A stretch of DNA of 64,000 nucleotides, from positions 101,066-165,065 of IMG/VR virus record IMGVR_UViG_3300030419_007131. One strand, given 5' to 3'. Origin of the DNA: a virus. Under the pieces are notes generated by a model. The model did not search any database. It worked only from the letters and a program-made list of their open reading frames with translations, and was not told where the DNA came from. A program made the translations under genes and the position numbers. Of the stretch, positions 29,056 to 55,011 are shown piece by piece (position 1 is the stretch's first letter; each line of letters opens with the position of its first letter).

Positions 29056-29367
29056 TGGTGGAGGTGGCGGGGCTCGAACCCGCGTCCAAAGCAGTTACTA
29101 CTTCAAGTCATTCACAAGTTTAGTCAGTTTTTCTAAACAGACAAAATAGTCAATTTATTTCGATCCGCTGTATTGACAAAAGCGTACTCACTTGTTATGC
29201 TCTTCTTGAACACCTGGCGAAGAGCAACCAGGGATTAAGCAGCTAAGGCTAAATCGTAATCTGCGTCATTGGCAGTTAAGTGTTCCGGAAAAAGATTAAC
29301 GTGATAATTCCAGCTTGCACGACTTGCACTATCCATCTTCCCTACTCTGTCGATACCATTCACCCCC
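29056..29367 (-). ncRNA. ssrA: tmRNA (ssrA), one-piece, phage-encoded
   Basis: A 312-nt gene with all tmRNA landmarks. The 5' end GGGGGTG pairs with CACCTCC before an encoded ACCA 3' end (7 bp with one G-U), followed by the usual GAATGGTATCGACAG start. The T arm GCGGGTTCGAGCCCCGC is near the 3' end. The tag frame at 29235-29273 encodes ANDADYDLALAA then TAA, close in style to ANDENYALAA. The gene is not permuted, so it differs from the two-piece tmRNAs of alphaproteobacteria. tmRNA rescues stalled ribosomes and tags the products for proteolysis. It follows the HTH gene with no clear own promoter, so processing from a longer transcript is likely. Confidence 0.95.
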
Positions 29368-30639: not shown

Positions 30640-32793
30640 CTAGCCCACCGTTATACCTAGTAAATAGTCAACTACTTCGTTAACTAGCTCATCTTCTTCT
30701 TGGAGCGGTTTTTTCTTACGACGTCTCTTTTTCTTTTCAGAACCAGTAACTTCGGGCGCCCTTCCTGAATATCCCCATCCGGTTCCGCCCATTCCCGCAG
30801 CTGTGGAGAATTCATTGATATTCATAGCGCTTGGTAATATTGATTTTACATCATCCACATCAACGTTTTCAGGTAAATGTAAACTTAATAGTTCATCGTT
30901 GTTTTCGCGTGCAGCTTTTCGCATCACAGATGCGCTTAAGTCAATCCCGTCAGCGCTTTCTACCGGGCAAGGATCCAGCACTCCCACTTTTACATTAAGA
31001 GGGTTCTTGTCGGGATTATTGGCAAACCAGTTTGCAAAATCCACAGCCCGCTGTGCGTCGGAGGGGCCCTTGGCGCCTACTTTCTGGCTACACCCCAGCA
31101 CAAAGACGGCATCATCGCTGAATTGTGAGACAAACTCTTTATTTCCTAGCAACTCGAACGCGGCCCTCATCGGCTGGTTATGTTCGACGAAACGAATCTT
31201 AGGATCAAGACCTCCATACAGGTCAAATAATCGTTGAGACATCTCTTGCGTGACTCCCTCACGTGCCTTAGGACCGTTCAGTACCACAACGTTTTCCACA
31301 TCTGGGTTATCTGCATAATAGTTGAGCATCGCATAGTGACCTTTATGAGGGGGCTTAAAGCCTCCAGGTATAAGAACCACGTGTCCGCTTTGTTGTTCGT
31401 TAAGAGCCCAATTTACAGCCTCTGCTAAAGCAATTTTCACGCTAGCTGCATTTTTAATAAGAGAAGTAACTGGTACGCCGGCGCGCAAGCTTTCGTACAA
31501 CATATGATTTTTGTTTGTCGTTGCGGGAAGATTTTTTGACCACTCCAGAAGTGATTTAGTCACCGAAAAACCATCCATGCCCCAATATACTGTGAGGCTT
31601 TCGGCTTGTTGAAACTTTGAGCCCTTATCAACAGCGAAGTTTGCCTTGCTAAACTCTAGGCGATCAACAAATTTTACACCATTTCCAGCGTGGTCAACAG
31701 CCACATACCCCTCAGGATTGCTGGCCACTAAGTCACCAGATCCATCATCGATAAAGTGCTTTGTATTATAAACAGCATTGTTATATTTGCTGATAAAGAT
31801 ATTCTTGGCCTCGAACAAGAGCCGCGAGACTTCAAAGAGACTTAAAATATCTGGTCTTTTTTCATCAAAAGCCCGGACCATTTCTTCCCCTTTTTGGGTA
31901 GCTCTCATTCTGCCCTTTTCGGACTTTAAAGAATCAATCCTTTTTTCAAGCCGCGTAAGATACCAGGTTTTAAAGCCCTCAAAGGACTGTTCTGGATTTT
32001 CCAAAAACTTGCCACCCTTAATCTCACTATTGATATAAATGTTGAGAAGATCCATCGGCAGATCATCATAGTTAATTTTTTCATTTACTCCATCGGCCGC
32101 CGCAACCAGTTCCTTTACTTTCGCTTCTTCAGCAACTGTAAGGGTAACAGTACCGGTATCATCGGTGAAAAAGGCGTCATCGAACCAGACTCCAGGTACC
32201 TGATTCAGGCCACTAACATCGGCGCCGAACGAGGCTCCGCTGTCTAAGCCATCATAAGTGGTATGAAAAACAATACCAAATTTTGATTCACCAACTTCTT
32301 TGCCCAACTTAGAGTCCACCGGCACAGCATATGTAATTGTGTTTGGCTTAAACGTATAATGTGGCTCTCCATCAAGTTCGACCACATTTAACATTTCATC
32401 ATCAAACATAAAGTCGCCTTGAAGAATTTTTTCAATCCCCAAAGAGGGCAAAAACCTTAATGCTTTAGTTAGCTTATCAACCAAACCCGGCGCGTGTCCA
32501 TGATTTCTCTGAACATCTTCGGGACTATAGTTTATTTTGGGAATCTTGTTAAAGATGGATTTAGTTCCAACGAAGAATTTCCCATTTTCAGGGTTGACCC
32601 CTGCAAAGATAGCAGGCGCCCCGTCCCACTTAACAGAGGTTTGAACTTTTGATTTAGAGTTTCCTTTAAGTTCTTCTAGTAACTCTAGCAAAAAAGCCCT
32701 AGCCATTCCATAGCCCTTAGGACCTTGCGTTAAAACAAGCTCTTCAAGGTGTGTAAGATGGGTATTCGCCTTTCCCTCGTTCAAAAGAGACAT
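30640..32793 (-). CDS. Ligase-like plus HxGH nucleotidyltransferase fusion protein
   Basis: A 717-residue protein. It begins MSLLNEGKANTH, with SLLNE|G like a prohead-protease site. Residues 40-380 resemble the covalent nucleotidyltransferase (DNA/RNA ligase) fold: SVKWDGAPAIF (KxDG, Lys 55), KILQGDFMF (motif III-like) and NPEGYVAV...KFVDR (motifs IV/V-like). Residues 470-620 are a second domain: VVLIPGGFKPPHKGHYAMLNYY (GGFxPxHxGH). VDLSASVMRKAARENN resembles the ISxTxxR substrate loop. The C terminus has a basic run (EKKKRRRKKK). I recall N-terminal relatives in marine T4-like phages (DUF6267-like). Function unknown; RNA or nucleotide end-modification is possible. Confidence 0.72.
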   Translation of the reverse strand: MSLLNEGKANTHLTHLEELVLTQGPKGYGMARAFLLELLEELKGNSKSKVQTSVKWDGAPAIFAGVNPENGKFFVGTKSIFNKIPKINYSPEDVQRNHGHAPGLVDKLTKALRFLPSLGIEKILQGDFMFDDEMLNVVELDGEPHYTFKPNTITYAVPVDSKLGKEVGESKFGIVFHTTYDGLDSGASFGADVSGLNQVPGVWFDDAFFTDDTGTVTLTVAEEAKVKELVAAADGVNEKINYDDLPMDLLNIYINSEIKGGKFLENPEQSFEGFKTWYLTRLEKRIDSLKSEKGRMRATQKGEEMVRAFDEKRPDILSLFEVSRLLFEAKNIFISKYNNAVYNTKHFIDDGSGDLVASNPEGYVAVDHAGNGVKFVDRLEFSKANFAVDKGSKFQQAESLTVYWGMDGFSVTKSLLEWSKNLPATTNKNHMLYESLRAGVPVTSLIKNAASVKIALAEAVNWALNEQQSGHVVLIPGGFKPPHKGHYAMLNYYADNPDVENVVVLNGPKAREGVTQEMSQRLFDLYGGLDPKIRFVEHNQPMRAAFELLGNKEFVSQFSDDAVFVLGCSQKVGAKGPSDAQRAVDFANWFANNPDKNPLNVKVGVLDPCPVESADGIDLSASVMRKAARENNDELLSLHLPENVDVDDVKSILPSAMNINEFSTAAGMGGTGWGYSGRAPEVTGSEKKKRRRKKKPLQEEDELVNEVVDYLLGITVG

Positions 32794-32800
32794 GGGATGA

Positions 32801-33049
32801 TTATTCCTTCTTAGATTCTTCTAGAATTTGGACCTGTTCCTCAAGCAGAGTGACCCGCTCTCGAAGGCGTCTAGTTTGTCTTCGAACTTCTGTCAGATTA
32901 GCTGTTGCAACTTCAATCCGGCGCTCGTCTCTCCTAGAACGAGGGACGATAGATTGTAAAACTTCGCCGATAGATTGAATATAACTATCTAAACTTGGTT
33001 TTTTACTTTCACCCAGCATGAACTCGCGAGTGAGTCGCCGGAAGTCCAT
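32801..33049 (-). CDS. Small coiled-coil protein, possible capsid-targeted
   Basis: An 82-residue protein beginning MDFRRLTREFMLGESKKP; FMLGE|S at residues 10-14 may be a prohead-protease-like site. The C-terminal 45 residues form a coiled coil (NLTEVRRQTRRLRERVTLLEEQVQILEESKKE). It sits between two cassette members. Function unknown. Confidence 0.58.
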   Translation of the reverse strand: MDFRRLTREFMLGESKKPSLDSYIQSIGEVLQSIVPRSRRDERRIEVATANLTEVRRQTRRLRERVTLLEEQVQILEESKKE

Positions 33050-33053
33050 TAGC

Positions 33054-33254
33054 TTACTTATCCGAAGCTGCAGATTTACGACTTGACTTTTTCGCCTTGC
33101 GTGCGGCCTTTTCTGCCGCGGCAGCTCGTGCAGCCTCTAACGCTTGCGCTTCCGCAGCTTCTGCGGCTTGCGCTGCTTGTGCAGCCCCCGCCTCAGCTGC
33201 CGCTGCTTCATCAATCGCCGCTTGGCGACGTCTTTTAATCCATGGTGCAACCAT
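33054..33254 (-). CDS. Small Ala-rich basic protein
   Basis: A 66-residue low-complexity protein: a basic start (MVAPWIKRRRQAAIDEAAAA), a long Ala/Glu helix and a Lys/Ser-rich tail (AARKAKKSSRKSAASDK). It looks like a histone-H1-like or DNA-condensing helix. The stop and start of its neighbours are within 2-5 nt. Packaged DNA-binding internal protein is possible, but nothing proves it. Confidence 0.58.
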   Translation of the reverse strand: MVAPWIKRRRQAAIDEAAAAEAGAAQAAQAAEAAEAQALEAARAAAAEKAARKAKKSSRKSAASDK

Positions 33255-33255
33255 T

Positions 33256-34467
33256 TTACTTGGCCTCCTTTTTAATTCTCTCTACAATCCGGCGCGTGAT
33301 TTCTTTCGCTTCCCGAACTGAGATTTTGCGTGGAAGTTGTTGAGTTTCTCCCAGTTTAGCTTGGGCCGCCTCTCTTACCTTGACAGGTCGAACCTTTGTA
33401 GTTGTCCTCGATAGATCTCTGCCTGAAACGCGTACTCCCACCGGCGGCGGCGCATCTTCTGCGGCATCCTCTCCAGCCTCTTCACCAGCAAGTTCCCAAT
33501 CAGCCTTCTTGATGGCCTCAGCCTCGCCGGTATCATCGTCATCATCGCGCCAGCCCCAACCTTCTTCGATTTCCCCTCTACGTCGTTTCGCCGCCAGAAA
33601 CTTCTTTGCCGCAGCGATTTCTTCGGGGGTGCTTGGTTCGTAAGCTTTATCTCCCAATTCTAGGCCTCCAGTACTCGGAGCAACCGTATGACCTTTGACG
33701 CTACTGTGGTGTCGTGGTCTTGTGGCCGTTCCCCCTTGGGCGATACGTTCCCAGGACCTCTTAGTTTCTTCCAGATCTTCGGCTTCTTGTCCTTCCCTGA
33801 AGTGGGTTCCTTCCTCGCCGTAGTCATAGGTTTCTTCACCCTCAGTCTTCTCATTAAGCTTTTCCTCTTCCGACTCCTGCTGCAGTTCGACACATTCGCC
33901 ATCCTGCCACTCAAATCCTTCTTTGCATTCGCTGCCCTTGTCTTCCTTAAGAAGTCCCCACTTTTTCATCAAGAGCGTATTCAGCTCATTATTTTTCCAC
34001 TCGTTTAGTGACATGTTTGGTTCTCCTGAATCCGAGAAATCAATCTCGATGTTAATTTTTCCTGTCTTAATTAGGTCCTCAAAGTCTCTAAAGATTAAAT
34101 TACCTTTAGTATATGCTTCGCGCTCCATTTTACGCATGTGAGGATCCGTTTGTGCATAGCCCGGACCGGTCTCCTTATCTCCTAGGTCACCGCGACAATT
34201 TTGAGCATGATGAACAAGCTCATGCGACAAGGACCGTAGGATATCTTTAGGATGGCGCCCATCAACGTATAACACAATCTCTAGAGCCACAGGATCATAA
34301 AACGCTGTTTTTCCAAGCATTTTTGTAGCATTTTGCTCATCGCTTTGAAAAATAATAGATATGGGTTTATTAAATTGGAGAGCTTTTTGTGAATAAGGGA
34401 AAAAATTATCCACCATTTGCTCCAAATGGCCCAGGTCTCCGTGAGATTTATTTATACACTTATGCAT
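33256..34467 (-). CDS. HExxH metallopeptidase with long acidic tail
   Basis: A 403-residue protein. The catalytic domain is N-terminal: KMLGKTAFYDPVALEIVLYVDGRHPKDILRSLSHELVHHAQNCRGD (about 48-93), with HELVHH as the zinc motif and a downstream Glu in REAYTKGN. I recall similar domains in marine T4-like phages. Residues 190-350 are acidic and disordered-looking (EESEEEKLNEKTEGEE), ending in a basic helix (ISVREAKEITRRIVERIKKEAK). A second in-frame ATG at 34416 has GGAG just upstream and a TATAAATA box before it, so the true start may be 17 codons shorter. Located in the putative packaged cassette. Confidence 0.72.
   Translation of the reverse strand: MHKCINKSHGDLGHLEQMVDNFFPYSQKALQFNKPISIIFQSDEQNATKMLGKTAFYDPVALEIVLYVDGRHPKDILRSLSHELVHHAQNCRGDLGDKETGPGYAQTDPHMRKMEREAYTKGNLIFRDFEDLIKTGKINIEIDFSDSGEPNMSLNEWKNNELNTLLMKKWGLLKEDKGSECKEGFEWQDGECVELQQESEEEKLNEKTEGEETYDYGEEGTHFREGQEAEDLEETKRSWERIAQGGTATRPRHHSSVKGHTVAPSTGGLELGDKAYEPSTPEEIAAAKKFLAAKRRRGEIEEGWGWRDDDDDTGEAEAIKKADWELAGEEAGEDAAEDAPPPVGVRVSGRDLSRTTTKVRPVKVREAAQAKLGETQQLPRKISVREAKEITRRIVERIKKEAK
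34449..34456 (-). promoter_or_regulatory. Candidate T4-type late promoter box
   Basis: On the minus strand these bases read TATAAATA, the exact T4 late promoter element recognised by gp55-type sigma factors. It falls inside codons 4-7 of the metallopeptidase frame and 33 nt before the alternative ATG at 34416. A chance match inside coding sequence is possible. Confidence 0.3.
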
Positions 34468-34476
34468 TATTCTTAC

Positions 34477-34794
34477 TTAAATAGTTGTAAACAGAAGAAA
34501 GAGCAGTCCCCATAGGTGGTAAACAAAAACAGAAATGTAGATGAAGTTGAGTACCAATAAGGCCCTGAAAATAACCTTTGTAAATCGCTTGCGAAAAAAA
34601 TATAAAATCCAAATCCCTGCGGCACTGAGCCCTAACTTGGCCAAGACAAAAAGAAGGGGACTTACGTCCAAGAAAAACGCCATAATCGGGTTGGCTTCTT
34701 GGCCCAAGTCGTAAGCAACCCAACATATAGTAGCGGTAAGATCAATAAGAATAAAGATTGCCAGGATATATGCTAACCGGACAATTTTCTTCAT
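34477..34794 (-). CDS. DUF5658-like membrane protein
   Basis: A 105-residue protein with three hydrophobic segments (about 4-25, 40-65, 75-103). ILIDLTATICWVAYDLGQEANPIMAFFLDVSPLLFVLAKLGL matches the D..T......G..EANP....  pattern of DUF5658 membrane proteins. Inner-membrane location is expected. Function unknown. It is inserted between two cassette members. Confidence 0.7.
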   Translation of the reverse strand: MKKIVRLAYILAIFILIDLTATICWVAYDLGQEANPIMAFFLDVSPLLFVLAKLGLSAAGIWILYFFRKRFTKVIFRALLVLNFIYISVFVYHLWGLLFLLFTTI

Positions 34795-34811
34795 TCATTA
34801 ATCTCCTTGTT

Positions 34812-35117
34812 CTACCGTCGCGAGTTATCCATTTCTACAGCCTTGAAAATTTCTTCAAACTCTTTAGCAAGTCGATTAATTGCGGCTACTGTTTTATCTT
34901 CCAGCTGATCTTTGGAAGTATCATGTTTTCCGGCAGTTACTATTTGAAATAGAGTTTCTGCTTGCCGCGATAAATGATGTAAAGCCTGTGCAGTAAGATC
35001 GACAGGTTCTTCATATTCTGAGTCGTCTTCCCGATAGGGCATTTCCAACAGAACAGAACGTGAATTCTTGATTTCTTCGTTGATGAGGTCTTTAAGGCTT
35101 TGTCGAGTAATCTTCAT
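34812..35117 (-). CDS. Small protein with possible capsid-targeting N terminus
   Basis: A 101-residue protein beginning MKITRQSLKDLINEEIKN; the amphipathic start with LINE|E resembles a capsid-targeting sequence, and similar MKITRxxLxxLIxEE starts are frequent in marine T4-like phages. The rest is helical and acidic (AQALHHLSRQAETLFQIVTAG, INRLAKEFEEIFKAVEMD). Function unknown. Confidence 0.6.
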   Translation of the reverse strand: MKITRQSLKDLINEEIKNSRSVLLEMPYREDDSEYEEPVDLTAQALHHLSRQAETLFQIVTAGKHDTSKDQLEDKTVAAINRLAKEFEEIFKAVEMDNSRR

Positions 35118-35120
35118 TAT

Positions 35121-35960
35121 TTAACCCTTCTTCTTTTTCTCTAAGTTGCGCACGATTGTATTGGCTATAGCTTTATCGCTAGGGACATTTAGCTTTCCAA
35201 ATATAGAAGCTAGCGCATCTCGCAACTTAAGTGGTTGAACTCCCGGCGCGCCTAGTACGGTGAGCAATTGTTGTTCAATAGCCTCGGGAGTTTGAATCTC
35301 TGAGCTTGTCCCGGCCACCGCAATTCGTTTGGCGCGTGTGGATGCAGGATCCTGTTCTTCTGACACTTGCATGCTCATTGCATCCAACACGATTTCTTTA
35401 TCGTCGCCGTCTAATGCCGCCATGGCTTGAAGAGCCTTTTGAACCTCCGCTACGTTTTTTACGCCGCGTGCTTTAAGTGCTGCATCGTCTGGAATACCTT
35501 CTTGAAACATTCCCACTGCATCGCCCATGGGCATTGCAAAGCCACCCATGCCACCGGTATAATTACCCGCCGCAGCACCGGCCGCATTATACTGCTGTTG
35601 GTCACGAGGAGGTGCCACAACGCGTTGGTCCGGCATTGGATGGGCGCCCATGTCGATAATACCATTCAAAACATTTCGCATGCATGCTGATGCTTTAAAT
35701 GCATCTTCATAGATTTCATCGTAAACCGGGTCATCCAGCTCTACGATGAGTTTTTCAACGGCCTCACGAGCAGCTAGCGCAACCTCATAAAGTGCGTTGG
35801 CCTCGGGATCTCCCATATCCTGTTCTTTGTCCGAGGTATCGGCCGCGGGCATTCGATGAGGAACCCCTGCAGGCGCCGACGGTACCATCATTCCTCCGGG
35901 TCCATCATGTGCGAGAGCGCCTTCGACAAAAAGTTTAAGTTGTTTGTAATCTATAGTCAT
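35121..35960 (-). CDS. Virion-associated protein with possible capsid-targeting N terminus
   Basis: About 279 residues from the ATG at 35960, just after the stop of its upstream neighbour. It begins MTIDYKQLKLFVEGALAHD, with LFVE|G as a prohead-protease-like site. It continues with a Gly/Pro/Met-rich linker (GPGGMMVPSAPAGVPHRMPAAD), a helical domain (NALYEVALAAREAVEKLIVELDDPVYDEIYEDAFKASACMRNVL), a second Gly/Met-rich linker and a C-terminal helical domain (KLRDALASIFGKLNVPSDKAIANTIVRNLEKKKKG). No enzyme motif. A structural or internal head protein is likely. Confidence 0.62.
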   Translation of the reverse strand: MTIDYKQLKLFVEGALAHDGPGGMMVPSAPAGVPHRMPAADTSDKEQDMGDPEANALYEVALAAREAVEKLIVELDDPVYDEIYEDAFKASACMRNVLNGIIDMGAHPMPDQRVVAPPRDQQQYNAAGAAAGNYTGGMGGFAMPMGDAVGMFQEGIPDDAALKARGVKNVAEVQKALQAMAALDGDDKEIVLDAMSMQVSEEQDPASTRAKRIAVAGTSSEIQTPEAIEQQLLTVLGAPGVQPLKLRDALASIFGKLNVPSDKAIANTIVRNLEKKKKG

Positions 35961-35961
35961 T

Positions 35962-36996
35962 TTAGCCTTTTCCTGGTTTAGCTGAGGCGGGAGTTGTTTC
36001 AATCCCCGGAAACTTCTTCTTTACAGCGCTATGCACTCTTTTAACTAGGCTTTCTAGGCTTCCATCATACCAACTCGGGGCCGAGGAATACTGATTGGCG
36101 CGTGAAAGGGCGTTTCTTCCGTGTGATTCATCAGGGATGGGAAATTTCCGTTCTTTCGGAAAGATAAAACTACTAGACGACATATCTTTTCGCTCCTTAG
36201 AAGAGAGTTTTTTCTCATCTAGTTGAGTTTCTTCCATCATCTCGTCCAACAAAGCGGACATGTCGAGATCAAACATTTCTTCTGCTTCTTCATTGGTCAA
36301 GACAACTTCAACCTCTTCTTTAATAATTCGATAAATATCAGCTACTTTAATTTTCATTTCTTCTAGTTCCTCTTCTGCGGGCTTTTCTCTTTGCCCAATT
36401 TTACTCTTTAAACTTAGCTTCCAATTCTCCCAATCTTGAAAATGCGCGTCTTTGGGAAACCCTTGCTTTTGAAGCGAATGCAAAACAAACCGAGATAGGC
36501 CATAATCATCAATCCATGTGAAGATGGGAGCTATCCACTCCCACATAACAGAAGCATCTACAGGGCTGGCGACATATAAGGCTGCCGTCAAAACCTTTAG
36601 CTTTAAATCAAGCGGCATTTTTGTCGACTTGTCTTTATCAATGGCAGCAAAATATGCGGCCGCAAGTTCGTCCCCGGCCGGAATGCCAGCCGTAATCGCA
36701 CCGACGCCTGCACGGGCTCGTGCTGCTCCTCTGCTACCTTCGGGGGGAAGCTCACTTCCAGGCCCACTACGCCATTGCGACAAGAGGGGATCCTCTTCTT
36801 CGGTAAGCTGGCGCTTCATCAAAGCATGCAAGAGTTTATCGTTTTCGGAGCCCGGTGTTCCCCCCGCCATTTGGTTTACAGCTGCTAGAATTTTTTTAGC
36901 ATGCGGTTTTAGAAGTTTGTCTATTATTTCTGGTTGAGTATCTCGTTCATGAAGAACTGAATAAACTTCTTTTGCAATAATGTGGGCAAGATTCAT
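35962..36996 (-). CDS. Protein with C-terminal DUF6582-like domain
   Basis: A 344-residue protein. The N terminus (LAHIIAKEVYSVLHERDTQPEIIDKLL) is helical. The middle (about 140-200) has a compact helical domain rich in Trp (VMWEWIAPIFTWIDDYG, FQDWENWKLSLKSKIG). At 210-235, MKIKVADIYRIIKEEVEVVL looks like an internal copy of the MKI...L..  II.EE element seen at other N termini. The C terminus, FPKERKFPIPDESHGRNALSRANQYSSAPSWYDG...VHSAVKKKFPGIE (about 272-333), matches what I know as DUF6582 in phage proteins. Function unknown; part of the late cassette. Confidence 0.65.
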   Translation of the reverse strand: MNLAHIIAKEVYSVLHERDTQPEIIDKLLKPHAKKILAAVNQMAGGTPGSENDKLLHALMKRQLTEEEDPLLSQWRSGPGSELPPEGSRGAARARAGVGAITAGIPAGDELAAAYFAAIDKDKSTKMPLDLKLKVLTAALYVASPVDASVMWEWIAPIFTWIDDYGLSRFVLHSLQKQGFPKDAHFQDWENWKLSLKSKIGQREKPAEEELEEMKIKVADIYRIIKEEVEVVLTNEEAEEMFDLDMSALLDEMMEETQLDEKKLSSKERKDMSSSSFIFPKERKFPIPDESHGRNALSRANQYSSAPSWYDGSLESLVKRVHSAVKKKFPGIETTPASAKPGKG

Positions 36997-37044
36997 ATGA
37001 CGCGACTCCAGAGTCTTTTTAATTAGTTCTTTATCGAGTGTTTC

Positions 37045-37968
37045 TCAATTTTCTTCTGGCGTTATATAGACAGGCACTTGGCGTAATCCAAGTTTTTTGG
37101 CAGCCTCTAAACGATGGTGACCATTCATTACATGGTAAAAAGGCTCAGGAACACCCGATTTTGGCGCGCGCCCAACTTTTTCTGCCTGCGTTCTGTAAGT
37201 TTTAACTGGTTTTTGATTGCACACTTCTATGGGTTTAAACTCGCCCTTCTTGATATCTATCATTTTTCTTTTTATGATGTTATCACATTCCGAACTCGGG
37301 CAATTGTGATCTTTGCCGTGCCCCAACTCTTCTGTGGGCAAGACATTATCTATGTTTACATACAAGACCTTCTTGCTTTCCGATAAATCTTCTGAATTCT
37401 TTTCGGCACTTAAACAGTTAATCCACTTATTTCGTAAGAGTTCAGTCTCTTCACCGGGCACTGGGACATGCTCCCCTGCGATCCCAGAACCTTCAAGAGC
37501 CGCAAGCTCTTCTAGGTCGTCATCCCAATGTTTGGTGACTCCAAGCTTTTTTAGCATCTCTACTTTAAAATCTCCGCTCGTGTATTCAACGATCTCTATA
37601 GGCAGATCTAGTGCGGCAATAAGCTCTTCTGGTGTGGGAGCGTCATCCCATGGTTTTTTAGGACCTTCAAGTTTGCACCGCGATGTAACGATTACAACCT
37701 GGTGGCCTTCATCTGCCAATTGACGCACAATGTTGATGTATTTTTCATGTGGTCCAAGATACTCCACATCTCCATCTTCTAAAGTTTTATACCGGATAAG
37801 CGTGTTGTCAAAGTCAAACGAATAAGTGTTTTGTTCTAGGTTGTCTTCGTCTTCCACGACGATCGTACGTTTTTTATACCATGGTGAGTCATCCGGGGGT
37901 ACTCCCTCTCCAAATCCTCGTCCTTCGTTAAGGAACCTCCGCCATTCTTTTAATATTTCTTTCATCAT
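37045..37968 (-). CDS. Capsid-targeted(?) HAD phosphatase plus ParB-like protein
   Basis: A 307-residue, two-domain protein. It begins MMKEILKEWRRFLNEGRGFG, with FLNE|G as a predicted prohead-protease site. Residues 48-175 are a HAD-type domain: YSFDFDNTLIRY (DxDNT, Asp 52/54), HQVVIVTSRC (Thr/Ser motif II) and VTKHWDDDLEELAAL (acidic motif IV), like the phosphatase half of polynucleotide kinase. Residues 205-305 look ParB/sulfiredoxin-like: VLPTEELGHGKDHNCPSS, FYHVMNGHHRLEAAKKLGLRQVPVYI (the GHHR motif). The pairing suggests nucleic-acid or nucleotide end-processing. A TATAAATG late-promoter-like box lies 21 nt upstream of the start. Confidence 0.72.
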   Translation of the reverse strand: MMKEILKEWRRFLNEGRGFGEGVPPDDSPWYKKRTIVVEDEDNLEQNTYSFDFDNTLIRYKTLEDGDVEYLGPHEKYINIVRQLADEGHQVVIVTSRCKLEGPKKPWDDAPTPEELIAALDLPIEIVEYTSGDFKVEMLKKLGVTKHWDDDLEELAALEGSGIAGEHVPVPGEETELLRNKWINCLSAEKNSEDLSESKKVLYVNIDNVLPTEELGHGKDHNCPSSECDNIIKRKMIDIKKGEFKPIEVCNQKPVKTYRTQAEKVGRAPKSGVPEPFYHVMNGHHRLEAAKKLGLRQVPVYITPEEN

Positions 37969-37988
37969 TATAAATATACCTTTTCATT

Positions 37989-37996
37989 CATTTATA
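37989..37996 (-). promoter_or_regulatory. Candidate late promoter box
   Basis: The minus strand reads TATAAATG here, one base from the T4 late consensus TATAAATA, 21 nt before the ATG of the HAD-ParB gene and in a true intergenic gap. This is a good position for a gp55-dependent promoter driving the left part of the cassette. Confidence 0.4.
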
Positions 37997-38019
37997 GTAT
38001 AGCAGCCCCGAAAATGATG

Positions 38020-38238
38020 TCAAGGATTATTTTTGTTGCGATGGACCATTCGCTCCAATAGTGGTAGTTTGCTGGACACTGCGGTAGTAAACATAAATGG
38101 CATAAAAGAGTGAACAAGACACTTAAGTGTCAAAATCTTAAACATGTACACCAACTTCCATGCAGCGAACATATGCTCAAAATAGCCTTCATTTTGGTCA
38201 TCCAGGTGCTTCCGCCAATTTTCAAGCAGTAGTTTCAT
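38020..38238 (-). CDS. Small protein with MKLLLENWRK N terminus
   Basis: A 72-residue protein whose first 12 residues (MKLLLENWRKHL) repeat those of the next two genes upstream almost exactly. The stretch DDQNE|GYF may be the processing site. The rest is hydrophobic and aromatic (HMFAAWKLVYMFKILTLKCLVHSFMPFMFTT), perhaps one or two membrane segments, and ends in a basic tail. Its ATG overlaps the preceding stop as TAATG. Function unknown. Confidence 0.6.
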   Translation of the reverse strand: MKLLLENWRKHLDDQNEGYFEHMFAAWKLVYMFKILTLKCLVHSFMPFMFTTAVSSKLPLLERMVHRNKNNP

Positions 38239-38882
38239 TATTTTTGCTGTGCCTTTTGTAAAAACGCTTCATAAGTCAGAGACCATTCCAAAGGAAGAAT
38301 GTTTTTCCCATCCTCGGTTTGATCCCATTCGACAGAATAGGCGCTGTCGCCCTGCCCAAAAATGGCGCCCGAATCTTTACCAACTAGTTGCTTCTTTAAT
38401 AAATCGACAGAGTTGGTTTTTACCGCTTCGCGAAAGTTACCGGCGTTCTTATAAGGAGAATTCGGCCCTAAGTCGGCCGAATCGGGAATATTGCCAGGCT
38501 GGACATAAACAAAGCCTGCCTTCACTCCGGCAGGTGCAGGGGTTAGGGGATAATCTTGAATATCTTGCATGGTAACATAGGTGCCCGCGGTGGCATCCTG
38601 AGTTTGTGCGGCCACGTCTTGGTCGTAGTCTTGCCAAGCTTTTTGGGTCTGCGCGGTGGCGCCAGCAACACCGCCAGTCGCAACGCTTAAGGCAACAGCA
38701 AGGGGAAGTGCTTTTTGTGTGACTTGCTTGCGAACCCAGGCCGCCTTTTTTGGCCCAACGAGATCAACAATTCGATCCCACAGCTCGCCCTCAGTAAGTT
38801 GTCCGGACTCATAAAGCACACAAATATCCTGTGCTTCGACTAAAAGTTGGTACCTTCTCCAGTTTTCAAGTAGGAGCTTCAT
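38238..38882 (-). CDS. Putative internal virion protein with MKLLLENWRR N terminus
   Basis: About 214 residues from the ATG at 38882, which shares bases with the preceding stop (TAATG). It begins MKLLLENWRRYQLLVEAQD, with LLVE|A as a predicted cleavage site. A short helical domain follows (VLYESGQLTEGELWDRIVDLVGPKKAAWVRKQVTQKAL), then a hydrophobic Ala/Gly segment (LAVALSVATGGVAGATA, about 67-84) that could insert in a membrane. The C-terminal half is soluble (GFVYVQPGNIPDSADLGPNSPYKNAGNF). An injected protein that inserts in the host membrane would fit, but this is inference. Confidence 0.62.
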   Translation of the reverse strand: MKLLLENWRRYQLLVEAQDICVLYESGQLTEGELWDRIVDLVGPKKAAWVRKQVTQKALPLAVALSVATGGVAGATAQTQKAWQDYDQDVAAQTQDATAGTYVTMQDIQDYPLTPAPAGVKAGFVYVQPGNIPDSADLGPNSPYKNAGNFREAVKTNSVDLLKKQLVGKDSGAIFGQGDSAYSVEWDQTEDGKNILPLEWSLTYEAFLQKAQQK

Positions 38883-40312
38883 TAAACGTTCCACCCATGT
38901 AAATAATTGGTCCATTTTTCCCAGATTGCTTGCATTACTGGCTGCAGTTCGCTTGTGTTATATCCACGCTCTATCGCATCGTTAAATATGAGATTAATTT
39001 TATTCGCCACAATCCGTTCGATATCTCCCCCAGTCCGTCGGGCCCTTCCGCGAGCACCAGCAAGATGTCCCCGAGTTTCTGCCTCGGATGCAAAGTGTTT
39101 ATAAATGTTCTCTAGACTATCCCACTTTTCTTCACCCTCGGGAATATCACCTGTCAGCATATCTGTAGGATCACAGCTATGTTGTAGTTCGTGTGATAGG
39201 GCATCTTCCAACTCCTCTGTCAACCACTCTTCAAATGTCTCTATCTCCTCATATCCGCGCGGAATATTGAGGGTGATCACTAGGTTTGATTGTGACCGAT
39301 CTTCAGGGACGCAAAGGTAAAAGGCCTTAATGCTGGCCTCGCCACGATCGTTTATCGCCACGCCCAGATGGACTTCATTAATTGTTTCATAGTTCGCGAA
39401 AAGGGCGCCTGTGTCCAATATAGTGATTGCTTCACCACCGGCCGTTTGTTGGTTTAAGTGCTCAATGGATTCCGGGCGCAAAAGAAGAGAAGATATCATC
39501 TGATTCAGCTCTTCGCTAAACTTGATGAGATCGGGCTCAGTATCGGCAGCCTCACTGATACCTTCTTTTAAATCATCGTCCTCGTCCCATTTTGAACTGA
39601 ACACGGATGAATCGATAATCTTGAAGTTATAATCGTCGTCATGACCAATGTTGGAGCGGTTGATCTCATATTTGTCGATTTCGAATTCATGCATTGCCTT
39701 GCTGAGTTCTTGGTACGCTGCGCCCGCAACAGGAGCAATTATTTTTTGAAGTTCTAGGGCCTTTCTGTCTGCATCGCTGGGGTCGTCAGATACATTGCCG
39801 AGCGCAATCTCGCGATCGGCACGAAAAGAGTCCATGAGGCGCCCCATAATGTGAAAGGGATCTGCCGGATTAAACTGCTCCCCCAGCTCATCTGCGACTT
39901 TTAATAAAGCCTCCTGCTCTTTGGGGAAAGATTGATCCAAAACTTTCTGCATTTGACTTGGCCAGCTGATTGGGCGAGTCTTTTCCATTACAATCCAAGA
40001 AAAATCATCCGCATGTGCATATGCTTTGGGAAAGATGAATGGGTAACGCTTTGCTGTCTCAAAGTCGTCCTTGTTCATCTGCATTTTATAGTCGTCAGAG
40101 TCATGAATAACTTTGATGACATATTCAGGGTCTCCAACGGGCTTGTACACGCTGCGAAAAGAGCCCCTTCCGATCCTTATGAAACGATCAGATTCTACGA
40201 TGGCTTGGATTTCTTTTAAATCATCCGTCGCTTGGATTTCTTTGAGCCACGGGAAATGCTGGGCTTCGCCTTCTGTGAGATACTTCCGCCAGTTTTCAAG
40301 TAGGAGTTTCAC
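38882..40312 (-). CDS. Capsid-targeted(?) kinase-like plus HExxH metalloprotease fusion
   Basis: A 476-residue, multi-domain protein. Residues 1-14, MKLLLENWRKYLTE|G, look like a capsid-targeting sequence. Residues 43-235 resemble a protein kinase: IGRGSFRSVYKP (Gly loop, 47-58), YVIKVIHD (Lys 67), WIVMEK (hinge) and NRSNIGHDDDYNFKIIDSS (catalytic-loop Asn about 221, metal-binding Asp about 233); the usual catalytic Asp seems to be Glu. Residues 255-470 hold a zincin: ELEDALSHELQHSCDP (HExxH, 374-378) with a downstream Glu in ASEAETRGHLAG. A packaged kinase-protease that acts on the host after injection is an attractive idea, similar in logic to T4 Alt. Confidence 0.75.
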   Translation of the reverse strand: MKLLLENWRKYLTEGEAQHFPWLKEIQATDDLKEIQAIVESDRFIRIGRGSFRSVYKPVGDPEYVIKVIHDSDDYKMQMNKDDFETAKRYPFIFPKAYAHADDFSWIVMEKTRPISWPSQMQKVLDQSFPKEQEALLKVADELGEQFNPADPFHIMGRLMDSFRADREIALGNVSDDPSDADRKALELQKIIAPVAGAAYQELSKAMHEFEIDKYEINRSNIGHDDDYNFKIIDSSVFSSKWDEDDDLKEGISEAADTEPDLIKFSEELNQMISSLLLRPESIEHLNQQTAGGEAITILDTGALFANYETINEVHLGVAINDRGEASIKAFYLCVPEDRSQSNLVITLNIPRGYEEIETFEEWLTEELEDALSHELQHSCDPTDMLTGDIPEGEEKWDSLENIYKHFASEAETRGHLAGARGRARRTGGDIERIVANKINLIFNDAIERGYNTSELQPVMQAIWEKWTNYLHGWNV

Positions 40313-40946
40313 AAAGAAGCTCCAAATCAGAATTAAAAGCTGCCTCTATTTCAGCTAACCCGCCAAACTCTTCCCAGTCGCCCCAGTAGGCGGCGGGTTT
40401 TAAGGTATCCTTGTGATAGGCCACAAATTTCTTTACCATTTCGGCCACATCTTGAAGATCTCCGAACAATTCTTTAATAGCCTCTGCTACTTGGCCCCCT
40501 CGAAGCATTGTGAGAATCTGTTGAATTTTTTCTATTATCTCCGGGGTCTTTGCCACCTTATCTAGAACATAGCCACCAGTTAGCTTAAACAATGCTGTTA
40601 ATATCATTACGCCAAGCTCTATGTGTTTGCGCGTCATTAAAAGTCTTACGGCAGCGATTTCATTGCGAACCTGGTGTTTCCCAATTAGCCTCTTTTGTCG
40701 AAGCTTATTAAACAAATCAACCAACTTAGTGCCTAATGATTTAACGAACTTTTGGGCGTATTCAATTCCCTTATCTTTCATCTGGGTCATTTTGGCTTTG
40801 GTATAATCCCAAAGATCCCCTAAGCCTTCATGAAGGTCTTCATTTAAGAAGTCCAAAATCTCTTGTTCACTAATCGTAATGGTTGCAGGATCGTTATAGG
40901 CTTCTGTAAGAAACTGATCCCACTTAATGGAAGTGAAATTTGACAT
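40296..40946 (-). CDS. Helical protein with capsid-targeting-like N terminus
   Basis: A 216-residue, almost wholly alpha-helical protein. It begins MSNFTSIKWDQFLTEAYNDP; QFLTE|A closely resembles the T4 internal protein start MKTYQEFIAE|A. The rest comprises long amphipathic helices (LWDYTKAKMTQMKDKGIEYAQKFVKSLGTKLVDLFNKLRQKR) and a hydrophobic helix (ELGVMILTALFKLTGGYVLDKVA). No catalytic motif. It opens the cassette on the transcription side and overlaps the kinase-protease gene by 17 nt. Confidence 0.65.
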   Translation of the reverse strand: MSNFTSIKWDQFLTEAYNDPATITISEQEILDFLNEDLHEGLGDLWDYTKAKMTQMKDKGIEYAQKFVKSLGTKLVDLFNKLRQKRLIGKHQVRNEIAAVRLLMTRKHIELGVMILTALFKLTGGYVLDKVAKTPEIIEKIQQILTMLRGGQVAEAIKELFGDLQDVAEMVKKFVAYHKDTLKPAAYWGDWEEFGGLAEIEAAFNSDLELLCETPT

Positions 40947-51545: not shown

Positions 51546-52337
51546 CTAAACCGCTTTCGCCCATTCGACAGGCCGGGACAACACCTTGAAGCGCATGATC
51601 TCGCGACAGTCATCTGCATAGTGATTGGTAAAGGGCATTTCCCATTCGTGGATGTTACTCGTGTTGGCAGTCCAGTCTACACTCACCTTACCAAACTGAT
51701 CGACTTTCGTTACAATCCCCAGGACACTTCCCGTGTAATCAGTCGTTACCTTTCTAAGTTTCAATAGCTCGACTGTGACCAAATCTCCTGGCAAGATTTC
51801 TGCAACGATTTTTTGCAACTTTTTCTGAGAAGATTTCTTCTGTGGTTTTCTCTGAGGATTTCTCTGAGGATTTCTCGCTGCCTTTTTGACAGTGCTCGCT
51901 GTGATTTTTTTCTGTGGCTTTTTCTTCTTTGTTGTCGCTGCCTTTTTCTTGCCTGCCCATGCGGTCCAACACGCATTGGCGCAAACCACGTTGCCGCTCT
52001 TTGCTGTAAACTTCTTCGCCTTGCAGTGCTTGCAATTCTTTACAAACTTTTCTGCTGCTTCCTGTGCTTTGATTGTCTTGACAAGTCCGGTGTTGGTCGT
52101 GAAGATTTCTGTGGTTATCTCGCGCCAACTCTTCTGACGATTTACATAGCAGAGTTTTACTCCCACCTTGCCAACGATTTTTCCTGTCTTGCTGTCAATG
52201 CCGGAATCCACAACCACGCGCACAAACTTTGCGCTGGGATGCTTGCGGCTATAAATGATGCTTGTGCCCTTTGCGTTCTTCTTGTGGGGGAAGAAGCCTT
52301 CGGCTTTGAGGATTGCTTTTCGCTGTACGACTGTCAT
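51546..52337 (-). CDS. Zinc-finger, Lys-rich protein with GDLV domain
   Basis: A 263-residue, three-part protein. The N-terminal part (SIIYSRKHPSAKFVRVVVDSGIDSK) is soluble. At about 102-125 is a possible zinc finger (CKHCKAKKF...VVCANACW). A very basic repeat-rich linker follows (KKKKPQKK, NPQRNPQRKPQKK). The C terminus has ILPGDLVTVELLKLRKVTTDYTGSVLGIVTKVDQFGKVSVDW, a member of the GDLV family seen at 60-63 kb. The makeup suggests nucleic-acid binding. ATGA overlap with its upstream neighbour. Confidence 0.7.
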   Translation of the reverse strand: MTVVQRKAILKAEGFFPHKKNAKGTSIIYSRKHPSAKFVRVVVDSGIDSKTGKIVGKVGVKLCYVNRQKSWREITTEIFTTNTGLVKTIKAQEAAEKFVKNCKHCKAKKFTAKSGNVVCANACWTAWAGKKKAATTKKKKPQKKITASTVKKAARNPQRNPQRKPQKKSSQKKLQKIVAEILPGDLVTVELLKLRKVTTDYTGSVLGIVTKVDQFGKVSVDWTANTSNIHEWEMPFTNHYADDCREIMRFKVLSRPVEWAKAV

Positions 52338-52555
52338 TTTATTTCTCCTGTTGAAAGTAGCTCAACGTCTGTTACTTTTTCCCAACCTGCGCCGATGCCG
52401 TAATCCTTCGGGAAGGCAGTCCAATGAACAAAAATTTCCCGCGATTCGCCGCGCAAGCGGGCTCCAACTGTCTGGGTGCGAGATTGTGTGATGATGCCGC
52501 AAAGACCGGGATAATTGGTCTGATCGCGCCATTGAACGAAATCACCGACTTTCAT
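52334..52555 (-). CDS. GDLV-family small protein
   Basis: 73 residues from the ATG at 52555 (AGGAAGG upstream, ATGA overlap with the preceding gene). MKVGDFVQWRDQTNYPGLCGIITQSRTQTVGARLRGESREIFVHWTAF shows the MKxGDxV...GII......  V.W pattern. Inferred small SH3-like barrel. Function unknown. Confidence 0.72.
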   Translation of the reverse strand: MKVGDFVQWRDQTNYPGLCGIITQSRTQTVGARLRGESREIFVHWTAFPKDYGIGAGWEKVTDVELLSTGEIK

Positions 52556-52713
52556 CTTATTGCCTTCCTGAGATTGCAAAGTGGTTCCCAAGACTTTGTG
52601 GTGTCGGTGTATTGAACAAAAGCGAACTCGGCCTTATGGTCAATTTCCACAACAACGCCAATCTTGCGATGGAAATAAAAGCCATGCACCAAATCGCCAA
52701 TTTGAATGTTCAT
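52552..52713 (-). CDS. GDLV-family small protein (53 residues)
   Basis: A short complete frame with ATGA overlaps at both ends: MNIQIGDLVHGFYFHRKIGVVVEI, then a strand with FAFVQYTD and KSWEPLCNLRKAIR. The GDLV and GVVVEI segments place it in the same family as its neighbours. Confidence 0.68.
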   Translation of the reverse strand: MNIQIGDLVHGFYFHRKIGVVVEIDHKAEFAFVQYTDTTKSWEPLCNLRKAIR

Positions 52714-52919
52714 GCCTCGCTCACAAGGTGAAGTTCTGTGATATATTCTTCTGTGGTCGCGGAATTATTCCATGTGAACCATTGGACTGCGACAACGTAA
52801 GGTCCGTTTGCGTTCACTTGAACAATTTTGACCACGGTGCCTTTATCGATGCGTAGCGAGTCGTCCACAATGTCCCCAACTTGTAGAAGTGGCTTTCCCC
52901 ATGCGTCTGATTTTCTCAT
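52710..52919 (-). CDS. GDLV-family small protein
   Basis: 69 residues from the ATG at 52919 (ATGA overlap upstream). After MRKSDAWGKPLLQVGDIVDDSLRIDKGTVVKIVQVNANGPYVVAVQWFTWNN it shows GDIV...GTVVKIV...  VAVQW, the family pattern with a longer N-terminal lead. Function unknown. Confidence 0.68.
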   Translation of the reverse strand: MRKSDAWGKPLLQVGDIVDDSLRIDKGTVVKIVQVNANGPYVVAVQWFTWNNSATTEEYITELHLVSEA

Positions 52920-53203
52920 GGGTAGCGATTCCCGCCTTCTTTGCGGTCCCACACATCTTCTGAAAACTGTTTGGCAAAACGAAGGCCAGTGCCATCGGTG
53001 GCGGCGTCTTCGTTCTCGACTTCTGCCTTTACCTTCGTTGCGAAGGTGCGAAGCATCTTGATGAACTCAATTTTGCCGAAAGTGCGCTTCTGCGCTTCTC
53101 TGAGTCGATGGCCCATGTATTGCGCGGCAAGCTGGTCAACGATTTTGATGGTGTTTGCCATCCCCTCGCGATCTTCGGTATCAAAAACGATAACCATCTT
53201 CAT
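52916..53203 (-). CDS. Small helical hypothetical protein
   Basis: A 95-residue protein. MKMVIVFDTEDREGMANTIKIVDQLAAQYMGHRLREAQKRTFGKIEFIKMLRTFATKVKAEVE: one strand with FDTED, then helices. The C-terminal part is charged. It links the HNH-free early gene upstream (1 nt spacing) to the GDLV group (ATGA). Function unknown. Confidence 0.62.
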   Translation of the reverse strand: MKMVIVFDTEDREGMANTIKIVDQLAAQYMGHRLREAQKRTFGKIEFIKMLRTFATKVKAEVENEDAATDGTGLRFAKQFSEDVWDRKEGGNRYP

Positions 53204-53204
53204 T

Positions 53205-53669
53205 TTAGTTGCCTCCGAAAGCGGTGATGAGATCGGCTTCGGTCAAGCCGAGTTCTGCCATCGCGGCTTCCCGTCGAAGCTGCTTCTGAGACTTCGCTTG
53301 CACCTTCGGTGCTGCTTTTGCCTTCTTTGGCTTTGGCTTCGGTTCCGGCTTGTCGAGGAAGGAAGGAATGTGGCCGGTGAATACTGCGGCCTTGCGCTGC
53401 TTTGCGCGAAGACGGGCAAAGCGCATTCGGCGCTCTGCGCCTGGAATTCCGTTGCGGAACTCCTCATCTTTGGCGTTTGCGCGTGCGTGGTTGTTTGCAC
53501 CACCGTGACGCTCACAACGCCATCGGCCTTCGTGCTCTTTTGAAATGTTGGGGTCGAACACACGGCAGCCACCTGCAAAAGCGCAGGTGACTCCGTGCGT
53601 CGAATCGGCAGCTAGGCGGGAACCGTGTGCGAGGGCGAAAGCATTGTTTCCTTTGGGTGTGCGGGCCAT
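53205..53669 (-). CDS. Basic early protein with Cys/His motif
   Basis: A 154-residue basic protein. HGVTCAFAGGCRVF (Cys 29/34) and WRCERHGGANNH (Cys about 52, His 55/61) may bind one zinc ion. The second half is Ala/Lys/Pro-rich (KPEPKPKPKKAKAAPKVQAKSQKQLRREAAMAELGLTEADLI). It is the first gene after the promoter at 53720 and has AGGAGAG before the ATG. Nucleic-acid binding is likely; nothing more specific is visible. Confidence 0.65.
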   Translation of the reverse strand: MARTPKGNNAFALAHGSRLAADSTHGVTCAFAGGCRVFDPNISKEHEGRWRCERHGGANNHARANAKDEEFRNGIPGAERRMRFARLRAKQRKAAVFTGHIPSFLDKPEPKPKPKKAKAAPKVQAKSQKQLRREAAMAELGLTEADLITAFGGN

Positions 53670-53719
53670 TTTGAACTCTCCTGGCTCGTGTGGGCTTCAT
53701 CGCCCCCCACTGTCTTTCT

Positions 53720-53748
53720 AATATAGCACGCTCGCATGCTGCTGTCAA
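53720..53748 (-). promoter_or_regulatory. Early sigma70-type promoter
   Basis: TTGACA (53743-53748), 17-bp spacer, TATATT (53720-53725) on the minus strand. A GTGGG..CCCAC hairpin and AGGAGAG follow before the ATG at 53669. It directly follows the terminator at 53751-53780, giving a terminator-promoter boundary between two early units. Confidence 0.9.
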
Positions 53749-53750
53749 GC

Positions 53751-53780
53751 AAAAAATTACCGCGAATCTGCGCTTTCGCG
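53751..53780 (-). terminator. Intrinsic terminator after the 53757-54380 gene
   Basis: Minus-strand RNA: CGCGAA - 8-nt loop - TTCGCG, 6 bp, then GTAATTTTTT. The stem lies in the last codons and the stop TAA is in the descending part. This ends the operon that starts at 56330-56358. Confidence 0.7.
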
Positions 53781-54380
53781 CTTTGTGATCTCCGCGACCT
53801 TCAACATTGCCTTGTTGCGGAGCTGCTCGAAATCATTGCTGTAGTAAGAGCGCGCATTCTCGGGAGTCTTCATCGTCCCAATTCTGAGAGCAAGGTCAAG
53901 CGTGCAATTAGGGTGCGAAACAAAGCGCTCCAAAGTGTAGGTGCGCGACAGCTCATCTTCACCTAAATCGGCATAAATCTCTTCAAGCAGTTTGCCGGGG
54001 GTGCGACTATTTTGCTTTTTGGATGACCACCAATAGTTGCCGCCGAAGAATGCCTGCATCATGCGCCAGTGCGAACGACTGTTGTTCTTGAAATACTTGC
54101 GGTAGACTTCCGTGTATTCCTTCTTCTTCAACTTGATGGTACCGTGCGCCAGCATCGTTGCCTTGAAAACGTAACCACGATGCTCCCAGAGTTCCTTTGC
54201 GGCATCTGGTGTAAGATTAGGATTCGCAGCCAAATACTCTTTGCCGAGACGGTACCAATGCTTTGAAATCGCTAGCTGCGTTTCAGCATCCGTAAAACGA
54301 TTCTTTGCGAGTCCGACGACTTCGCTGTTCTCCATGTTTTTGATGTTGTTCGCATAAGGCGAAGTGTAAACTGTAGGCAT
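53757..54380 (-). CDS. Early protein, helical
   Basis: A 207-residue, mostly helical protein rich in Lys, Tyr and Trp (AISKHWYRLGKEYLAANPNLTPDAAKELWEHRGYVFKATMLA, SHWRMMQAFFGGNYWWSSKKQ, RFVSHPNCTLDLALRIG). The repeated pattern H/NPN.T.d....L....  resembles helical repeat proteins. AGGAGA 6 nt before the ATG. Last gene of the MoxR-partner operon. Function unknown. Confidence 0.68.
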   Translation of the reverse strand: MPTVYTSPYANNIKNMENSEVVGLAKNRFTDAETQLAISKHWYRLGKEYLAANPNLTPDAAKELWEHRGYVFKATMLAHGTIKLKKKEYTEVYRKYFKNNSRSHWRMMQAFFGGNYWWSSKKQNSRTPGKLLEEIYADLGEDELSRTYTLERFVSHPNCTLDLALRIGTMKTPENARSYYSNDFEQLRNKAMLKVAEITKRESADSR

Positions 54381-54381
54381 T

Positions 54382-54615
54382 CTATTTCTCCTCGCTCGGC
54401 ATACTAAACGGGTCCACCGATGCGCTTGTTTGGTTGTTGGTTTGTGTTTCTTGTGCTGTCATAATCTTTTGCCAGCACCATTCGGCTGAACCGGCTTCCT
54501 GCTGCGCTTCCACGTTTGTTGGGTGACGCAGAAAGTCCATTTCCTGTTGGTCCCGATAGTTATCAAGAGCTATCAGGATGGTGGTCACTTCCTCGTCGGT
54601 TAGTTCAATCTTCAT
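54382..54615 (-). CDS. Small acidic early protein
   Basis: A 77-residue protein, MKIELTDEEVTTILIALDNYRDQQEMDFLRHPTN with a helical N-terminal half and a Gln/Thr/Ser-rich tail. Overlaps the upstream gene by 11 nt; 1 nt from the next. Similar LTxEEVxxIxxAL starts occur in many phage early genes. Function unknown. Confidence 0.66.
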   Translation of the reverse strand: MKIELTDEEVTTILIALDNYRDQQEMDFLRHPTNVEAQQEAGSAEWCWQKIMTAQETQTNNQTSASVDPFSMPSEEK

Positions 54616-54895: not shown

Positions 54896-54983
54896 CAGTT
54901 TCTTCTTCCTCATCAAAAAGGGGAATATCGTAGTCTTCGTCAAATCCATAACGAAGGGAATGGCAATTGGTCCAAGGGTCCAT
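54888..54983 (-). CDS. 31-residue acidic peptide
   Basis: Short frame starting MDPWTNCHSLRYGF and ending in an acidic tail (LFDEEEETDE). Its stop overlaps the next start. Between two well-supported genes in an operon. A weak ribosome site lowers confidence. Confidence 0.45.
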   Translation of the reverse strand: MDPWTNCHSLRYGFDEDYDIPLFDEEEETDE

Positions 54984-55011
54984 TACTAAATCTTTCTAGT
55001 TATTGGTTGTT

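Follow-up and report, generated by a model that had tools for sequence, protein, structure and literature searches.

Results

Layout of the array

The window analysed here is a stretch of 64,000 nucleotides, C1:101066-165065 of a 165,065-base virus record (C1). A home-made gene caller gave 186 genes in the whole genome. Window positions 30640-40946 hold a run of minus-strand genes with tagged N termini (hereafter the array), listed below in window coordinates. Throughout, a slash marks a predicted cleavage position, with residue P1 before it and P1' after it.

g142, 40296..40946, minus strand: 216 aa; tag MSNFTSIKWDQFLTE/A at 40902-40946; amphipathic body
g141, 38882..40312, minus strand: 476 aa; tag MKLLLENWRKYLTE/G at 40271-40312; APH/PRPK-like kinase body to about residue 247, joint ISE/A at residue 254, then an HExxH peptidase half
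g140, 38238..38882, minus strand: 214 aa; tag MKLLLENWRRYQLLVE/A; hydrophobic segment at residues 59-75
g139, 38020..38238, minus strand: 72 aa; N terminus MKLLLENWRKHLDD, with Asp at the expected P1 (HLDD)
g138, 37045..37968, minus strand: 307 aa; tag MMKEILKEWRRFLNE/G; HAD body and ParB-like body, with joint DLSE/S at residue 197 (about 37378-37380)
g137, 35962..36996, minus strand: 344 aa; internal tag-2 segment from about residue 214 (MKIKVADIYRIIKEEVEVVLTNEE); C-terminal DUF6582
g136, 35121..35960, minus strand: 279 aa; N terminus MTIDYKQLKLFVE/G, in relatives ...KAFVRE/A
g135, 34812..35117, minus strand: 101 aa; tag-2 family N terminus MKITRQSLKDLINEE, then LLE/M; weaker site MKITRQSLKDLINE/E
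g133, 33256..34416, minus strand: untagged HELVHHxQNC metallopeptidase-like protein (HExxH peptidase family), conserved among tagged phages
g131, 32801..33049, minus strand: 82 aa; weaker site MDFRRLTREFMLGE/S
g130, 30640..32793, minus strand: 717 aa; short N terminus MSLLNE/G; DUF6267/phrog_455 (ligase-like), then a cytidylyltransferase-like domain

An earlier note, made without database searches, had claimed at least eight tagged N termini here, on unlike bodies, and three near-identical starts (MKLLLENWR). All eight are present where it had placed them on the minus strand, and the first nine residues of g139, g140 and g141 are identical. The description of the bodies (kinase-like plus protease, HAD plus ParB-like, ligase-like plus nucleotidyltransferase) broadly held, with the kinase the weak part: the AlphaFold (AF2) model of g141 has two parts, confident at residues 20-235 and low at 1-17 and 237-267, and its Foldseek matches to APH/PRPK-type kinases are weak (E about 1e-3, low TM). 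Most array proteins had no Pfam match above the cut-off, a PDB sequence search gave nothing useful, and g140 and g141 had no match among named phages.

Tagging within the array is neither uniform nor complete. Neither g133 nor g134 carries a tag. The weak site of g131 is backed by its homologues, in which W..FL.E is kept down to 30% identity, and g139 is kept in two related phages (L415 and L416). The tag of g130, a protein with a related family in cyanophages, is short and optional, since some homologues lack it and start M(A/G)KANTHL. Nor is the array the sole tagged site: tagged genes also occur at C1:6.4-7.2 kb, 13.9 kb and 54.3 kb, and a second tag family (tag 2) comprises four genes at C1:65.6-67.1 kb plus g135.

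Several other features of the genome were recorded in passing. A tmRNA gene (window 29056-29367, minus strand; tag peptide ANDADYDLALAA) lies just past the end of the array. Window 52334-63284 (minus strand) holds a row of small proteins that start MKxGDLV or similar, apparent paralogues whose role is unknown, and window 4-23 kb a big cluster of genes that by eye resemble sugar-nucleotide and glycosyltransferase genes (epimerases, aminotransferases) and are probably related to surface glycans. At C1:80-92 kb the simple gene caller gave almost no genes, unlike the remaining genome. The predicted mature part of g8 (C1:6761-7213), a tagged protein, would start near a Tat-like segment (SRRSAMRRLGGAAAGAAAIATGGTAALAS), and it is possible that tag removal could unmask an export signal.

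Site statistics and the match to T4

A strict site, [LIFMV]xE/[AGS] with P1 at residues 5-30, was present in 8 of 13 array proteins and in 17 of the 157 others (Fisher p=6e-5). With shuffled N termini, a mean of 1.4 of the 13 proteins had a site, and never as many as 8 in 5000 shuffles; further into the array proteins, the count was 0-2. The strict count includes g132 (IDE/A in a poly-Ala protein), which is probably spurious, and misses g135.

The closest known system is the T4 capsid-targeting sequence (CTS) of IPI, IPII, IPIII and Alt, which is cut by gp21 and is likewise a short N-terminal peptide common to otherwise unrelated proteins. In T4 IPIII, truncation and suppressor experiments assigned head targeting to the first 10 residues, with residues 4 and 7 important for the targeting and residues 8 and 10 for processing; a variant with Asp at residue 10 was targeted but not processed (PMC9026906). 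IPII and IPIII both start MKTYQEFIAE. Spacing is equal in the three cases: Y4-F7-I8-E10 of IPIII corresponds to W8-Y11-L12-E14 of tag 1, the first of the two tag families described below, and to L8-I11-I12-E14 of tag 2. Within the array, T4-type spacing (hydrophobic or aromatic at P1-6 and P1-3, hydrophobic at P1-2, Glu at P1) is met by g135, g137, g138, g141 and g142 and is not met in g130, g131, g136 and g140; g139 has Asp at the position that matches the T4 processing Glu.

As a separate observation, T4 gene 61.1 (NC_000866 18966-19130, 54 aa, hypothetical) starts MKTFKEFIKE, which is almost the targeting sequence of IPII/IPIII; its product is possibly an unrecognised internal protein.

Two tag families in uncultured phages

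IMG/VR was searched with a DNA pattern for tag 1, M-K-(hydrophobic)3-E-[ND]-W-R, that left all residues after 9 unconstrained. It matched at least 120 stretches, whereas a scrambled pattern of equal content matched 8. Records carried 1-10 tag-1 genes each, and a reversed control pattern gave 0. The 162 proteins of at least 60 aa fell into 87 unrelated body families (BLASTP E<1e-3; capped sample), whose recognisable members include GNAT, zeta toxin, NUDIX, RNase T, HAD, M23 peptidase and DUF192 proteins.

With one representative per family, the tag-1 consensus MKLLMENWRKYLNE/ had high information through E14 and was near background from residue 16. The conserved residues were Y/F11, L/I12 and E14 (in 67 of the 87 families), and [LIFMV]xE with P1 at 12-18 was present in 78, compared with 9-18 in later segments of the same proteins. 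T4-type spacing was met in 62 of 87 families and in 0-3 in control segments; for this count W8 was already fixed by the search pattern. Tag 1 differs from T4 in two respects. P1 lies at residue 14, not 10, with ENWR kept, and P1' is free, with Glu commonest. Most T4 sites have Ala or Gly at P1'.

A tblastn search of named phages with the consensus returned no match, although a query of 23 aa has little power. A search of 84,980 prokaryote genomes gave 69 matches, of which just 2 seem genuine, and thus pointed to no bacterial home for the tag. One further tag-like match (L057, MKFIVENWRQIPFW..., without a proper site) probably fits the pattern by chance. We dropped the idea of the tag as the usual lead-in to a signal or membrane segment, as a hydrophobic segment lies near the tag in only 6 of the 87 families.

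Tag 2 has the consensus MKITKxQLKQIIKEEL...LxE/[AG]; g135 and the four genes at C1:65.6-67.1 kb have MKITKQRLKEIIREE-like starts. The corresponding IMG/VR pattern gave at least 180 bodies, which formed at least 156 families. Several residues as far as E14 were prescribed by this pattern, so the independent result for tag 2 is what lies downstream of E14. There, phi-x-E with P1 at 18-26 (a loose definition) was found in 108 of 156 families against 18-29 in controls, and phi-x-E[AGS] in 51 of 156 against 3-6 in control segments, with Ala and Gly commonest at P1'. This consensus, with its later LxE/[AG], is not that of T4.

The earlier note had suggested looking for the same N-terminal tag on unrelated genes of related phages, and this is met at large scale.

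The prohead protease and head genes

The earlier note would have been refuted by a genome without a gp21-like protease. Such a protease, a Peptidase_S77, is encoded at C1:52786-53232 (E=1.7e-32), in the same genome as a T4-type portal (phrog_213) and major head protein (phrog_138). The protease itself has the N terminus MAQLLREFYELCEGGVCQDLLTE/A (...DLLTE/A), of which relatives keep LLTE or close variants with Ala, Ser, Asp or Glu at P1'. Near its start the major head protein has LTE/G and LLE/G, and the head protein of Flavobacterium phage immuto has LFE/G and LLE/G. Among records of at least 139 kb, S77 was present in all 10 of the tag-1 series, in all 10 of the tag-2 series and in 3 of 6 untagged ones (p=0.008). 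The control is small; it consists of records of at least 139 kb from random patterns, and the tag-2 series includes two records reached via kinase relatives. We used only records of at least 139 kb because many shorter tagged records are fragments, often without S77; with the limit lowered to 75 kb, 14 of 26 tagged records have S77.

The gene adjoining the protease gene, g50 (C1:54342-54896), is itself tagged and also adjoins the portal gene. It is a paralogue of g140, to which its first 73 residues are 85% identical; the two also have a hydrophobic signal-like segment (...MAPPAHAS in g50), and the array copy has a different C terminus.

This position counts in favour of a rival reading, by which the tagged proteins would act in head building alone, as core or assembly factors of the prohead comparable to T4 gp67 and gp68: targeted and cut, yet not injected as effectors. 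Between the portal and protease genes, g50 occupies the place of T4 gp67/gp68 and shares its N terminus with g140, and small tagged proteins are common. Against this, the bodies are unrelated enzymes (GNAT, zeta toxin, NUDIX, RNase T, HAD, kinase) that differ among phages and make up 87 families, which fits accessory cargo better than a core scaffold. Moreover, the studied T4 proteins with such tags, IPI, IPII and IPIII, are injected into the host (PMC12373910). We regard the core-factor reading as unlikely and prefer that of tagged accessory cargo.

Exchange of tags at the predicted cleavage site

The same cargo body can carry different tags. The kinase body of g141 is 64-67% identical to proteins in the two related phages L415 and L416, where it stands alone, and is preceded by MKLLLENWRKYLTE/ in g141, MKLLLENWRKYLAE/ in L416 and MANFISIKWDRFLTE/ in L415. 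The last of these is the tag type of g142, the neighbour of g141 in the window. Similarly, a HAD body is preceded by MKLLLENWRKYLNE/, MKNFNNIWRNYLTE/ or MLKKWKQFLSE/, and an SHTKEHEEEL body by tag 1, by a short W..FLE/ variant or by tag-2-like segments, the latter within longer reading frames. In homologues without tag 1, phi-x-E lay no more than 2 residues from the junction in 22 of 46 cases, against 3-11 of 46 at shifted positions (p=7e-7).

A second rival holds that the tag is a DNA-level cassette, either a recombination hotspot or a translation-start element, copied between genes without any targeting role for the peptide. Some tag DNA has evidently been copied in this way: near-identical ATGAAACTCCTACTTGAAAATTGGCG occurs in many genes of some genomes, and the tags show a codon bias that differs from that of the bodies. 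However, the 87 representatives contain 70 distinct 27-nt sequences that use all six Leu and all six Arg codons, and this synonymous variation means that constraint acts on the tag peptide. Conservation also stops at Glu14, not at a codon-neutral point, and unlike tags interchange at one protein site. This rival is therefore very unlikely, and a peptide-level propeptide remains our reading.

Fused cargo with sites at the joints

Three array proteins join two unlike domains in one polypeptide: HAD and ParB-like in g138, ligase-like and nucleotidyltransferase in g130, and kinase and HExxH, which is weak, in g141. Parts of such proteins occur separately elsewhere. The ParB-like body of g138 is a separate tagged protein in L070 (MKLLLENWRGYLNE/NVFYVN...) and in L075, the peptidase half of g141 matches a separate protein in L021, and the internal tag-2 segment of g137 is the start of a separate protein in L415 and L334. 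We infer that the internal phi-x-E sites at fusion joints are cut; packaging of the fused cargo and its transfer with the DNA are likewise inferred, from the tag.

Two known systems are comparable. Polyvalent proteins, which are predicted to be packaged and injected, also fuse unlike domains, including zincin peptidase, kinase, GNAT and ParB-like domains (PMC5512222). Unlike them, most cargo here is apparently single-bodied, what unifies it is a removable tag, and the fusions have phi-x-E at the joint. In the giant phages SPN3US and phiKZ the head protease strips N-terminal propeptides from ejected proteins, but several of these exceed 100 residues and the site motif is another (PMC5694885).

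Virion proteins of relatives

Neither for this phage nor for any other with tag 1 or tag 2 did we find a virion proteome, N-terminal peptides or infection data. The virion proteome of the T4-like cyanophage S-CREM2 (OR473000.1) lists 28 proteins outside the structural class (PMC10665884, Table 3). A T4-type start, M[KQ]xxxx[FY][LIMF]xE, was present in 5 of these 28 and in 0 of 167 undetected proteins (p=4e-5). The five are a SAM hydrolase (MKDFDSFLEE/), an APH/ChoK kinase (MKRFDAFLTE/E), a cytidylyltransferase (MKNFSSFLTE/A), ORF13 (MKDLHSFLTE/) and ORF136 (MQTFSMFFSE/). The template was picked after the sequences had been seen, though it is that of T4, and this form was used because the broad site definition is only borderline (7/28 vs 14/134, p=0.058; 7/28 vs 13/134, p=0.051); broader motifs as a whole gave p=0.008 to 0.058. 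The passages of PMC10665884 used here do not mention T4-CTS-like N termini. The virion Cas9 of S-CREM2 has FASFMAE/ at residue 25, after an unusual leader.

The template is also found on the virion NMNAT of S-SCSM1 and on Syn9 gp184 (annotated as a cytidyltransferase), and three proteins of Flavobacterium phage immuto carry it: 193 (FLTE/N), 194 (FLVE/N) and 201 (FLKE/S). Two template-bearing genes of S-SZBM1 were not detected in virions, and SSCSM1_30 has the template but no virion annotation, whereas the NMNAT has one. These three genes, S-SZBM1_191, S-SZBM1_192 and SSCSM1_30 (OL473597 122311-123125; MK867354 44215-44535), lie near structural genes and are candidate internal proteins. The cyanophage virion enzymes (cytidylyltransferase/NMNAT, APH/ChoK kinase, SAM hydrolase, and Cas9 in S-CREM2) resemble the array in having kinase and nucleotidyltransferase-like cargo with a phi-x-E N terminus; they differ in carrying the T4 template of 10 residues in place of tag 1 or tag 2.

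These data bear on a third rival, that the N termini direct proteins elsewhere (membrane, tail lumen or replication compartment) and the match to a prohead-protease site is incidental. In its favour, the tag is an amphipathic helix and some bodies have hydrophobic segments. Against it, both tag families show a strong excess of phi-x-E at one fixed position, with the spacing of T4; the tags occur together with the protease; template-bearing S-CREM2 proteins are in virions; and so few families have a hydrophobic segment near the tag. We consider this rival, too, very unlikely by comparison with head targeting.

Discussion

The best explanation of the shared N termini is a T4-type capsid-targeting propeptide system with recombining cargo that is probably injected. 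We hold this to be likely (about 0.85), with packaging, cutting and injection all inferred for this phage. Conservation of the tag, its boundary, the diversity of the bodies, tag swapping and the presence of the protease are shown here. CTS function in T4 and the virion location of short-tag proteins in S-CREM2 have been shown in relatives, by others.

In the proposed mechanism, an amphipathic tag of 13-23 residues would dock varied proteins on the head core during prohead assembly, through a pattern of hydrophobic or aromatic residues at P1-6, P1-3 and P1-2 and Glu at P1. The gp21-like S77 protease would then cut after phi-x-E and free the cargo inside the head, from where it would most likely be ejected into the host along with the DNA. 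At least two tag families and some minor variants would serve this one job; recombination at the cleavage site would move tags from one cargo body to another, and several of the proteins carried would be fusions with a site at the joint.

Several points count against this reading: virion data were found for no phage with tag 1 or tag 2, the tag-1 consensus had no match in named phages (with a short query), P1' is free in tag 1, some tagged proteins (g139) lack a proper site, some bodies (that of g130) also occur untagged, two template-bearing S-SZBM1 genes were not detected in virions, SSCSM1_30 has no virion annotation, and the tag-free control for the protease is small. Of the claims of the earlier note, T4-type capsid-targeting N termini on varied cargo is supported, the exchange of tags at the site adding to it, with packaging and cleavage in this phage inferred. 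Its suggestion of injected effectors stays an inference, because packaging, cleavage and injection are unshown in this phage.

The CTS principle is already known from T-even phages, where ip genes were found earlier through the signal sequence common to unrelated IPs (PMC12373910, PMC9026906). Apparently new are the existence of two such tag families in uncultured phages and the scale on which they occur, together with the exchange at the cleavage site, the sites where bodies are fused, and the interpretation of virion enzymes of cyanophages as CTS cargo. The tagged cargo here also extends beyond that of T4 to enzymes and fused domains, on 87 and 156 body families in capped samples. In the literature that we searched, the tag strings were not found and 'capsid targeting' was not combined with metagenomes.

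A bolder reading is that the two tags are interchangeable head-packaging zip codes that a large group of uncultured T4-like phages has in common. Recombination exactly at the protease site would let cargo genes acquire, lose and trade them, fused cargo would be head-processed polyproteins split inside the capsid at internal phi-x-E sites, and hundreds of injected effector families could be listed from sequence alone. Taken as one joint claim, this has the odds only slightly on its side.

Injected phage proteins act before phage gene expression and disarm host defences; the T4 IPs, for example, block type IV restriction enzymes. Outside T-even phages such proteins are difficult to spot, since there is nothing that their bodies have in common. 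As the same tags sit on well over 100 unrelated proteins in other uncultured phages, the tag lets probable packed and injected proteins be read from sequence. The tag reading also offers an explanation for the kinases, nucleotidyltransferases, SAM hydrolase and Cas9 in a cyanophage virion, and the tags are short peptides that could be tested for loading chosen proteins into other phage heads. With a searchable, conserved tag that ends at a protease site, metagenomic phage sequence would yield a list of probable injected effectors.
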